Shown here one piece after another: positions 3,901 to 7,465 of a stretch of DNA of 7,591 bases. A program made the translations under genes and the position numbers. Each line of letters begins with the position of its first letter. Position 1 is the stretch's first letter. Under the pieces are notes generated by a model, which saw only the letters and a program-made list of their open reading frames with translations, was not told where the DNA came from and made no database searches. Source of the DNA: Candidatus Desantisbacteria bacterium CG1_02_49_89. Lineage in GTDB: Bacteria; Desantisbacteria; UBA1551. Location of the stretch: contig MNUP01000148.1 of the NCBI GenBank assembly GCA_001871075.1, forward strand, positions 1 to 7,591, read 5' to 3'.

Positions 3901-5105
3901 ACGGAGTGACGATAGCAGAGAATATCATTAATAACCCATCCTTCGAAATTTATAACGGGTCCATAGTCAACTGGAGCTACAACACACCGACAGGTTTATG
4001 GTCGATGTCTACGGATGCCTACGACGGCATGGTATCAATATTTCACACCTGCGCCACAAGTTCGAATAACTATGCGGGTGTTTCCTGGCCCGGAAATACT
4101 TATACAAGCGTCTGGCCTGCCTACGCGGGTGACGGGTTCCTCGTATCCGGTTATATAAAGACGGATAACCTTACCTCAAGCAACACAGGCGCGACTTTCT
4201 ACTTATTAAATCACTCGGACAATATACCTTATGAGTTAGCTTATGTCGGTAACCTTACGGGAACCAATCCGTGGACGTATGTTTCAGGATATTTTACGGT
4301 CAAAATGCTCAGGAACGGGTTCGAGTTCAGGTGTATGAACGAGGGGATGGGCACTGCCTGGTTTGACGCTGTCCGCGTGCAGAGGATACCGACGCTGAAT
4401 TTTACCGCGGCAAGGCTGGGTTTTAGCACGCCGGAAAGGAGCGTGGCAGCCGGAGCAGTGTCTGAAAGCATTGCGATCGAAGCGTGCGGAGAGGCAGGCG
4501 GCAGGGATGTTACCTCGAATGACAAGGTCGAGCTTTATACGTCTTCAATTACCGGAAAATTCTCCGTATCCGACACGCTGTGGGTTGACGTGACGGCGGT
4601 TTTTCTGGCAAAAGGCTGCGCGGTATTTTACTACAAGGATTCCAATACCGGCAATCCCGTTATCACTGTTTCCCGTTCAGGACTGGCGATCGACACCCAG
4701 GCCGTCACCGTGAACACGCCAACTGCGCCGGCCCTGAATATCGTAAAGACCCTGGAAAATGTCAGGACAGGGGAGACCGGAGTTCTTGTCAGGGCCGTTG
4801 CCGGAGACACCCTTGAATACTGCTTAGATATCCTGAACACGGGAGACGAAACCATCACGGAGGCTGTTATCTGCGACACATGGGCTTTTGACACCTCGGT
4901 GAATAACCCTGTTATTTTTATCAGCATGGACACATTCCCTGCTGATTCCTGGGCCTACACCCTTGCCGGGAACCCTTCTGACACAGACTGGATAGCAGGC
5001 GAGCCTTCTTCCGGTTCAGAGGACATAAAAGGCCTCAGGTGGAGGATGGATTTTCTGGTCCCAGCGGACCCGAAAGCCATTAGGTTCAGGATAAAGGTAA
5101 AATAA
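945..5105 (+). CDS. Giant secreted beta-propeller/Ig/lectin protein, interrupted by an in-frame TAG
   Basis: This encodes a probable extracellular or surface adhesin-like protein of about 1386 codons. ATG 945 opens a good signal peptide (basic MIKNKR, hydrophobic core, ...SPFLFA with cleavage expected after A27). Codon 46 is TAG, after which the same frame runs to TAA at 5103-5105. GTG 1125 is an alternative start but lacks a convincing Shine-Dalgarno site and a signal peptide, and it would delete part of the propeller. Domains by residue: 35-378, seven propeller blades of about 50 residues (SBBP-like); 379-485, A1 module; 486-581, invasin/Big_1-like Ig; 582-785, LamG/concanavalin-like; 786-895, A2; 896-991, second Ig; 992-1150, CBM4_9-like jelly roll (NPSFE start, AWFDAVRV end); 1151-1261, A3; 1262-1386, DUF11-like. 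No catalytic motif is visible, so binding of polysaccharide or other surfaces is inferred. The promoter at 632-660 probably drives it. The ribosome binding site before 945 is weak. It could be a recent pseudogene, a sequencing error or a readthrough gene. Confidence 0.85.
1047..2078 (+). repeat. Seven-blade beta-propeller repeat array
   Basis: About 150-bp tandem repeats encode units of the form [IV]Y.AG...NG..ND...IKYD.SGNT.W.K.Y..G...D...G[IV]A.D. Seven copies of the central DxxxxKYD/KWD strand can be counted. The last unit ends at LVLKYSQDP without its final W-x-K-x-Y strand. That strand is supplied at the N-terminus by AWMKIYNSG (from codon 34), the usual velcro closure of a circular propeller. 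This matches the SBBP-type beta-propeller family by pattern. Confidence 0.8.
1080..1082 (+). other. In-frame TAG within first propeller strand
   Basis: The codons run ...GGG GCA TAT GAC TAG GTT AAT GGA ATC..., and the frame is identical on both sides, so this is a substitution rather than an indel. In sister blades this position falls in the D-x-x-x-G[IV] segment, aligned with residues such as Y or D. TAG also ends the gene at 7290-7292, which argues against genome-wide TAG reassignment. Confidence 0.85.
2079..4727 (+). repeat. Alternating A, Ig and lectin modules
   Basis: Three A modules (2079-2399, 3300-3629, 4395-4727) share a block of the form FYY[KR]D.[ND]TG.PVITV.R followed by TQ or similar. 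Two Ig modules (2400-2687, 3630-3917) share a GxC...YAG..T[LI]TAVCDG ending with conserved cysteines. The carbohydrate-binding-like domains at 2688-3299 and 3918-4394 follow the Ig modules. The order is therefore (A, Ig, lectin-like) twice, then A, indicating internal duplication with a different lectin fold in each round. Confidence 0.7.
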
Positions 5106-5319: not shown

Positions 5320-5662
5320 TGGTCTGTTTTTACTGTGCGGAAATAATCAAAGGCGGACATAGGGAACAATCAAAAGTGAATATATCTGGGGGAAAATTAT
5401 TTAGACTCGCGGACTTGCAAAAAGCTAAATTAAGAGCAGTTTCTTATGGCAAAACATGTCAGAGGGGAGGGAATGGAAGGCAGGACGGTTTTAAAGGCAA
5501 AAGGCAATCCTCTGTGTTATCTCTAATGAAAGATTTGTTGTGCTTAAAGATGAGCAGAAAATCGGAGAGTACCAACTATGAGCGATGTGACATTTTAAGG
5601 TTCCCAAATGTGACATTTTGAATGTTGCGGAACAATTGGTCTGTTTTTGGTCTGTTTTTACT
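5318..5662. mobile_element. Probable insertion-element remnant between direct repeats
   Basis: ATTGGTCTGTTTTTACT at 5318-5334 reappears at 5635-5662, where an 11-base piece (GGTCTGTTTTT) is doubled. The segment between contains two copies of ATGTGACATTTT (5585-5596 and 5608-5619) exactly 23 bases apart, an arrangement like the multiple transposase-binding repeats at some IS ends. Coding signal inside is poor. A 100-codon frame from TTG 5319 looks non-protein-like in composition. Another frame ending at about 5579 gives FVVLKDEQKIGEYQL, which resembles a real protein end but is cut by TAA a short way upstream. No transposase can be named. Decayed IS DNA is an inference; a chance intergenic region is the alternative. 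Confidence 0.35.
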
Positions 5663-5689
5663 TGACATTTAATAGTTTTATGCTATATT
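5662..5689 (+). promoter_or_regulatory. Sigma-70 promoter for riboswitch leader
   Basis: TTGACA at 5662-5667 is a perfect -35. TATATT at 5684-5689 lies 16 bases on, and TATTAT at 5686-5691 is an alternative with 18. A TATAAT at 5691-5696 is too far away (23 bases). Initiation near 5696 would begin transcription just before the structured leader at 5706. The -35 box directly abuts the second copy of the GGTCTGTTTTTACT repeat. Confidence 0.7.
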
Positions 5690-5705
5690 ATATAATAGGC
5701 ATAAT

Positions 5706-5782
5706 AAGGGGGCAAACCCCGGGAAATCGGGGGACGCAAAACTTTACCCGTCAGGGGCACAGAATCTATGTTACGGAAGAGG
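5706..5782 (+). promoter_or_regulatory. Candidate cyclic-di-GMP-I (GEMM) riboswitch
   Basis: The GEMM signature is visible: GGGCAAACC at 5708-5716, a stem capped by GAAA (5722-5725), then GGGGGACGCAAAA from about 5729. This matches the conserved GCAAACC ... GAAA ... GGGACGCAAA core of that class, including tetraloop and receptor-like bases. The second half fits less well: the usual GCC after GACGCAAA is ACT here. CCGT (5748-5751) could pair with ACGG (5772-5775), closing a helix that includes CACAG/CTATG. No terminator with a U-run follows. The presumed 3' end abuts GGAAGAGG (5775-5782), a good ribosome binding site for GTG 5789, so translational control is plausible. Loss or divergence of function in the second half cannot be excluded. 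Confidence 0.55.
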
Positions 5783-6601
5783 CTAATAGTGAGCCAGTCA
5801 GGTGCATATCCGTATATATTAAATTTGAGATCAAGAAATTTGTATATAACAGTCTTTATTATATGGGGACTAACCTTTTTATTTGGTTTGTCCCCATTTT
5901 TATTTGCGCAGACAGTGTCTGACACGCTGTCATTCGCCACGCTTAGTTCCTCCTGGGTTTGTGATGACGGTATTTCTGCCTGTACCGTATCAGTATATAT
6001 TAAAGATGCTTCAGATGTTGCCATACAGGGAAAACAGGTAACCCTGCAGTCCGACCGCGGCTCGCTCGACACGATCACCCAGCCTGTTTCCGTCACTGAT
6101 ACTTTTGGGATGGAAACAGGATGGATATGCTCTTCTGTTGCCGGAACTGCGACAATAACAGTTCTTTGCGACGGCAAAACTATTTCATGCTCCCCAGCAG
6201 GAACAATTCTTACTTTCGGAAGACCCATTATGGCTATATCAAAGATACTGAAAAACGTAAGAACCAATGAAACGGGTACTTCTGTGCCTGTAAATGCGGG
6301 GGATACCATAGAATACATTCTTACCGCGCAGAATACCGGCAACGAGACCGCTACCGATGCTGTTATCGTTGACACGAAAGCCTTTGATACTTTTACAAGC
6401 AACCCCGTTATTTTTATAGGTATGGATACTTTTCCCGCTGATACCTGGGCATACACGCTTGTTTCCAGCCCTTCGGATACCGAATGGATAGCAGGAGTAC
6501 CTGCTTTCGGTTCTGCCAGCCTGAAAGGCCTTAGATGGAGATTTTATTTTTACAGGCCGGGTTTGATCAACCAGGTGAAATTCAGCGTGAAGGTGAAATA
6601 A
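5768..6601 (+). CDS. Secreted Ig-module plus DUF11-like protein, short paralogue of the large gene
   Basis: This encodes 277 residues from ATG 5768. A GTG at 5789 is an attractive alternative: GGAAGAGG sits 6 bases upstream, and starting there shortens an overlong N-terminus and avoids overlap with the candidate riboswitch. Residues 27-47 are a hydrophobic signal ending SPFLFA, cut before QTVS. This copies the IWGL...SPFLFA signal of the 945 gene. Residues of about 50-150 are an invasin-like Ig module (GKQVTLQSDRG, GWICSSVAGTATITVLCDG). Residues of about 155-277 are a DUF11-like domain roughly two thirds identical by eye to the end of the large protein (shared MDTFPAD.WAYTL, PSDT.WIAG, KGLRWR, final KVK). 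No catalytic residues are seen; an extracellular structural or adhesive role is inferred. It has its own promoter at 5662. The next gene follows after 127 bases and may be cotranscribed. Confidence 0.88.
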   Translation: MLRKRLIVSQSGAYPYILNLRSRNLYITVFIIWGLTFLFGLSPFLFAQTVSDTLSFATLSSSWVCDDGISACTVSVYIKDASDVAIQGKQVTLQSDRGSLDTITQPVSVTDTFGMETGWICSSVAGTATITVLCDGKTISCSPAGTILTFGRPIMAISKILKNVRTNETGTSVPVNAGDTIEYILTAQNTGNETATDAVIVDTKAFDTFTSNPVIFIGMDTFPADTWAYTLVSSPSDTEWIAGVPAFGSASLKGLRWRFYFYRPGLINQVKFSVKVK

Positions 6602-6728: not shown

Positions 6729-7292
6729 ATGAAAAAGATTTTAGCAGGATTGTTTATTGCCGGAATTCTGATGCTATGCGCAGGGGCGCAGGCAGCGGTG
6801 CAGAACATTGCCGTCGGCACGTTTAAGAATATGGCGGGAACTCCTTTTCCGGAAACATGTTCGGAGCAGGTAACGGCTGATATAGTGGGCCCTCAGATCA
6901 CGGTCACCAAGCTTCAGCAGAACGGAAGGACGGGGCAGTCCGGATCCGCGATTCTGGTCGCAAGCGGGGACACGATCATTTATACTATCCAGCTTTCTAA
7001 TAGCGGCACTGATTCCGCAACCGAGGTCGTGATAACCGACACGCTTGCCTTTGAAACGGTCGCAGGCCAGAGTGTGTTATACGAGACCAGCTCTGCGACA
7101 CCTGATACCGGCGCGGTATTCGCTGGCGGAATAGTAACAGCCCTTGAATACTATAACGGGTCGATCTGGCAGGGCACGACCTCAGGATTGATCCCGACCA
7201 ACGCAAAAGGCATCCGCTGGATTATAAATCTTGTGACATACGGCGCAAGTCTTTATAACGCCGGGTTCACGATAAAGGTCACAAGCCCGTAG
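6729..7292 (+). CDS. Secreted DUF11-like repeat protein
   Basis: This encodes 187 residues. The start is well supported: AGGAG at 6719-6723 lies 5 bases before ATG. The signal peptide is classical (MKKILAGLFIAGILMLCAGAQA, cleaved near residue 22); C17 lacks a proper lipobox, so a lipoprotein is unlikely. Residues of about 54-187 form one DUF11-like beta domain with NGRTGQSG, SGDTIIYTIQLSNSG and EVVITDTLAFET. These correspond to NVRTGETG, AGDTLEYCLDILNTG and EAVICDTWAFDT at the end of the large protein. KGIRW and a final FTIKV also match the KGLRWR and IKVK of the paralogues. There is no Ig or lectin module, so it is the minimal member of the family. It ends in TAG, so TAG is used as a stop here. 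Probable role: an extracytoplasmic structural component; the exact function is not recognisable. Confidence 0.9.
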   Translation: MKKILAGLFIAGILMLCAGAQAAVQNIAVGTFKNMAGTPFPETCSEQVTADIVGPQITVTKLQQNGRTGQSGSAILVASGDTIIYTIQLSNSGTDSATEVVITDTLAFETVAGQSVLYETSSATPDTGAVFAGGIVTALEYYNGSIWQGTTSGLIPTNAKGIRWIINLVTYGASLYNAGFTIKVTSP

Positions 7293-7327: not shown

Positions 7328-7465
7328 CTAATACAAACGCATAAAATAACCTGATAGTGTCATTGCGAACGAACGAAGTGAGTGTGGCAATCTCGTCGTT
7401 AAAACCGAGATTGCTTCGTCGTTTCACTCCTCGCAACGACAAATTACTTAATGCGTTTGTATTAG
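7328..7465. repeat. Nested palindromic MITE-like element, copy 2 of the 802-876 repeat
   Basis: A perfect 15-bp inverted pair (CTAATACAAACGCAT at 7328-7342, ATGCGTTTGTATTAG at 7451-7465) encloses an inner 84-bp imperfect palindrome (7358-7441) bounded by TGTC and GACA. The inner part carries the core shared with copy 1 (7386-7417 against 821-852, reverse orientation, 30 of 32). Copy 1 lacks the 15-bp outer arms. It sits between convergent genes, where it could act as a two-way terminator. The upstream 7293-7327 holds only short CTGGAT-type repeats. Confidence 0.75.

Follow-up and report, generated by a model that had tools for sequence, protein, structure and literature searches.

We found that the leader of a predicted secreted-protein gene is homologous to the cyclic-di-GMP class I (c-di-GMP-I, GEMM-I) riboswitch aptamer, that its 5' half is intact, and that no 3' half was recognisable by any test used. 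The window analysed here is an entire contig (C10) of 7591 bases, from a genome of 2.48 Mb in 150 contigs. We favour, with some confidence, the explanation that the leader derives from a class I riboswitch whose P3 half and linked expression platform were lost or diverged beyond recognition, so that it is most likely without effective control by c-di-GMP. The copy in the window is probably a relic, which may once have been complete and would since have lost both ligand binding and switching. A first-pass annotation had proposed a GEMM-like c-di-GMP aptamer here. That proposal stands as a statement of homology, based on the RF01051 match, the two-sided change of a P2 pair, the three further copies in the genome and its GGDEF and PilZ domains, but not as the description of a complete working aptamer.

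The covariance search with RF01051 that the first-pass annotation had suggested was significant. When the window was scanned with cmscan against Rfam, RF01051 (c-di-GMP-I) matched positions 5701-5778 of the + strand from end to end with 38.6 bits, above the gathering score of 35 bits, and the E value was 6.3e-5 for the window against all of Rfam and 4.9e-6 for the genome. The conserved elements GGCAAACC, GAAA loop and GGGACGCAAA were seen in the order already described, at 5711-5740, about 20 nt past a predicted promoter-like site with an extended -10 (table 1). Promoter-like sites around the aptamer were about as numerous as in shuffled sequences, and this one stands out by its 11/12 agreement and its TG. 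Transcription would be expected to start near 5696-5700, on the basis of this predicted site. In the window copy, the P2 hairpin is flanked by GGCAAA and GACGCAAA. A covariance model of the 33-nt 5' half (R1), built from 26 copies of other genomes only, gave the window 36.4 bits (genome-wide E 6.5e-5), the top score of any 5' half in the genome, the other copies reaching 35.9, 28.1 and 24.6 bits; because the model came from other genomes, chance is ruled out for the 5' half. Moreover, the window keeps each of the 11 invariant columns of our alignment (A1), as well as the two nearly invariant ones. The first P2 pair is C-G in the window and in the copy on contig C23, and U-A in the copies on contigs C114 and C133, a two-sided change among copies of one genome that directly supports the predicted P2 helix. 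Homology of the leader to the c-di-GMP-I aptamer is therefore supported at the level of sequence and predicted structure. That the whole resemblance arose by chance, to which only the missing 3' half would point, has a practically negligible probability in view of the genome-wide E values of RF01051 and of the independent R1.

Table 1. Features of the leader and the adjoining gene, numbered along the window.
Feature	Position	Strand	Basis or remark
Predicted sigma-70-type promoter-like site, TTGACA-16-TATATT, TG before -10	5662-5689	+	Consensus scan, 11/12
5' half of c-di-GMP-I aptamer	5708-5740	+	RF01051 alignment, R1 model, invariant columns of alignment A1
P2 hairpin	5717-5732 (GAAA loop 5723-5726)	+	RF01051 alignment
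Inner pairs	G5712-C5737, C5713-G5736	+	RF01051 alignment
Place of missing 3' half (P3, C92)	5741-5778	+	No stable P3, no 3'-half model match
Shine-Dalgarno-like GAGG	5779-5782	+	Sequence reading; 6 nt ahead of GTG 5789
Gene 2, predicted secreted protein with Big_1 Ig-like domain	5789-6601	+	ORF list, Pfam, translations
Terminator-like hairpin and U run in signal-peptide codons of gene 2	5861-5904	+	Fold -18.6 kcal/mol

The divergence of the 3' half, which had been noticed before, proved stronger than was claimed, only a 9-nt resemblance being left. RF01051 aligns this half by a local jump that skips 22 bases, and the P3 region folds with -4.9 kcal/mol, the weakest value among the 31 copies examined. 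In the canonical register no P3 closes with favourable energy, and a relaxed search for P3 found pairing at chance level (15-41 of 100 shuffles as good), both tests being of limited power, as several genuine copies fail them too or obtain low scores. A model of the 3' half (R2), run unfiltered over 5690-6000, gave no match (best -0.4 bits); as controls, the three other copies of the genome were matched where expected, with 3.9, 6.3 and 4.6 bits, and copies outside its building set with 24.7, 21.8 and 9.6 bits. Since R2 is weak on the copies of this genome, it could overlook a divergent 3' half. The sole indication of a 3' half is GUUACGGAA (5770-5778), which resembles the usual end GUUACCGAA in register and would set C92 at 5774; this resemblance was equalled in 80 of 1000 shuffled versions of the local sequence. 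The best P1 duplex (-3.3 kcal/mol) was matched by 173 of 1000 shuffles, and P1 of the C133 and C23 copies was likewise not beyond chance. The difference between the RF01051 and R1 scores, which is a rough guide only, as it compares two different models, was 2.2 bits for the window and had a median of 22 bits over 62 copies. Among these 62 copies scored with both models, the window copy is the only one without a recognisable 3' half: of two others with a low difference, one (G092:C29) reaches 58 bits once its long P3 insert is included, and the other (L028) has a canonical P3. We also looked for a 3' half displaced behind such a long P3 insert, as in the C133 copy and G092:C29; neither RF01051, run on the whole window and on 5650-5920, nor R2, run on 5690-6000, revealed one. 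Orphan 5' halves as a class were also rejected, as R1 over 98 genomes gave no match without an RF01051 match.

Three further c-di-GMP-I copies exist in the genome, on contigs C114, C133 and C23, with total scores of 48.9-53.2 and 46.4 bits, and all of them are ordinary members of the class. The second helix, to which the first-pass annotation had tied its reading, is absent from the window and present in these homologous leaders. Their layout runs from a promoter (TTGACA...TGCTATA for C114 and C133, TTGACT...TGCTATA for C23) to the aptamer, a hairpin with a U run (-18.7, -19.2 and -27.8 kcal/mol) and the gene. Complementarity between the 3' end of the aptamer and the terminator can be read in all three (AUGAACG/CGUUCAU in C114, GUUGCCAG/CUGGCAAC in C23 and CCUGUGG/CCACAGG in C133). 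Judged by duplex energy against 500 shuffles, there was a clear excess only for C114 (8 as good), a weak one for C23 (41) and none for C133 (213). The P2 hairpin of the siblings is nearly identical to that of the window (CCCGGGAAACCGGG-type) and the promoter is similar; unlike the window copy, they have retained a 3' half at its proper position and a terminator ahead of the gene. The C23 copy (L002:1450-1561, - strand) carries A at position 20 and, as in Geobacter, is followed by prepilin-like genes (N_methyl, weak PilX_N). In the C133 copy (L004:1495-1647), P3 is interrupted by roughly 80 nt of inserted sequence that contains long inverted repeats, and the frame downstream of this copy has 887 codons and includes a type IX sorting domain (CHU_C).

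No complementarity of this kind was found between the aptamer 3' end and the downstream sequence of the window (314 of 500 shuffles as good). A terminator-like hairpin does lie downstream (table 1), comparable in strength to those of the siblings, and a pattern search of the genome found only one other of its type, a similar GC hairpin with a U run at 984-1021, in the signal-peptide codons of gene 1. The downstream hairpin was rejected as expression platform, because it stands in coding sequence and gene 1, which has no aptamer, carries a similar one; it is probably not part of the riboswitch. It would acquire a role if P2 and the joining half alone sensed c-di-GMP and the core GGGGGCAAACC (5708-5718) paired with GGUUUGUCCCC (5884-5894), the 3' arm of this hairpin encoded inside the signal peptide. 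Such a working half-aptamer is highly improbable in our estimation. The pairing of the 5' core with that arm was equalled by 15 of 500 shuffles, in one of eight such tests, and was not counted as significant.

The main rival to a relic is a c-di-GMP-I riboswitch that still works despite strong divergence, with a minimal P3 and translational control from GTG 5789, which we regard as possible but rather doubtful. Its tiny P3, made of A5740-U5772, A5741-U5771, C5742-G5770, U5745-A5768 and A5746-U5767 around a CCC/GGG mini-hairpin, would form on ligand binding and alter access to the GAGG five bases past C92. Such a switch would fit the full-length RF01051 match over the gathering score, the invariant columns all kept in the 5' half, the register of GUUACGGAA and the Shine-Dalgarno-like site adjoining the aptamer end. 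It also has a precedent, as Vc1 of V. cholerae controls the secreted GbpA with no apparent terminator or anti-Shine-Dalgarno sequence (PMC4744006). Nevertheless, it is opposed by the lack of a favourable energy for P3 in the canonical register, the chance-level pairing in the relaxed search, the failure of R2 to find a match and of P1 to exceed chance, and by the retention of P3 in the other copies examined.

The contact positions of the leader were assigned by alignment to Vc2 and follow the Vc2 numbering. On this basis the predicted contact bases G20 (5711) and A47 (5738) are kept, and C92 is C5774 only under the weak 3' register. Position 20 of the window copy is thus a G, of c-di-GMP type, and the A found there in cGAMP-selective GEMM-Ib is absent. 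The role of G20, A47 and C92 and of their equivalents in Vc1 and Bc1 has been described (PMC4744006, PMC11218506), as has the cGAMP-selective GEMM-Ib class (PMC8835794). Four GGDEF domains, each with a canonical GHxxGD, and three PilZ domains are encoded in the genome, so c-di-GMP signalling is to be expected; despite the A20 of the C23 copy, all four GGDEF domains look like ordinary c-di-GMP cyclases. A variant aptamer for a different ligand such as cGAMP, with which the divergent 3' half and the A20 of C23 would agree, has only a very slight probability, considering the G at position 20 of the window copy and the canonical D of GHxxGD in every GGDEF domain. Moreover, every 5'-half match in 98 other genomes fell on an ordinary c-di-GMP-I match, which gives no sign of a separate class. 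Of the two readings of the 3' half offered before, altered ligand preference thus found no support, and a decayed copy fits better.

The short host contig of a 150-contig genome and the sharp break in the leader would also suit an assembly error of the metagenome type, in which the first half of a riboswitch was fused to unrelated sequence. We consider this improbable, because the promoter-like site and 5' half are followed by an open gene with a Shine-Dalgarno-like site at normal spacing. The start of this gene is uncertain, the candidates being ATG 5768 (within the aptamer match), GTG 5789 (GAGG ahead) and TTG 5825, the last of which gives a signal peptide that aligns with that of gene 1. 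The product of gene 2 had been called a secreted Ig/DUF11 protein. An Ig-like domain (Big_1) was confirmed in Pfam, with a sub-threshold match to DUF7507, but DUF11 was matched by the next gene (6729-7292) instead. The domains of the gene 2 product are common to many places in the genome (45 matches), and a search for close homologues of the locus turned up only paralogues and distant relatives. The C-terminal parts of genes 1 and 2 include a direct repeat of 220 nt with 70% identity (4835-5054 and 6331-6550), so the two genes have a duplicated domain in common. In gene 1, an in-frame TAG at 1080-1082 separates the signal peptide (from 945) from the long frame (to 5105) and is either a nonsense mutation or a sequence error. 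Elsewhere in the window there are two 33-nt inverted-repeat arms (820-852 and 7386-7418), 94% complementary and 6.5 kb apart, and a palindromic stretch at 515-628. The microRNA families matched by this stretch in Rfam (MIR4372 and mir-9261) scored far under their cut-offs and were rejected.

The transcript, which probably begins around 5696-5700, would open with the P2 half of the c-di-GMP-I aptamer. On the relic explanation that we favour, the missing P3 should prevent stable closure of the three-way junction around c-di-GMP; efficient switching would then not be expected, and the secreted-protein gene is likely read from the promoter alone. Four points speak against a relic. First, the 5' half is more canonical than those of the siblings, which look complete, and long neutral decay would not usually leave it so; given this near-perfect half, the loss, if real, would be recent, or the 5' half would be kept for another reason. 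Second, the final nine bases are similar to the consensus end and lie in register with it. Third, R2 scores low on the siblings of this genome, and fourth, P1 does not exceed chance in the C133 and C23 copies either. As a relic, the leader would indicate that a riboswitch may lose half of its aptamer with the other half staying intact, and it cautions that an Rfam match may exceed its threshold through only one half of a motif. A leader that still worked would mean that c-di-GMP can be recognised with hardly any P3. The genome also adds an isolated, uncultured lineage in which c-di-GMP-I riboswitches regulate genes for pilin-like and secreted proteins.

Compared with known systems, the leader is closest to the c-di-GMP class I aptamer (GEMM-I, RF01051) of type I with a GNRA loop, with which it shares GGCAAACC, P2 with the GAAA loop, GACGCAAA, G20 and A47, as well as its position behind a promoter and before a secreted-protein gene. 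It differs from that type in that a P3, a tetraloop receptor, a P1 and a linked expression platform could not be recognised. Type II aptamers of c-di-GMP-I also have no tetraloop receptor and usually carry a GYRA loop (PMC11218506), whereas the receptor-less leader of the window has a GAAA loop; receptor-less GAAA copies in other genomes retain a strong P3. The c-di-GMP-I-GGC family (RF03167) belongs to the same clan and is the best match for many relatives in other genomes, but the window is best matched by RF01051, and the RF03167 copies seen carry a strong P3. Since P3, a defining feature, is not recognisable in it, the leader is a partial, degenerate variant derived from RF01051 rather than a full member of this family, though it scores above the threshold.
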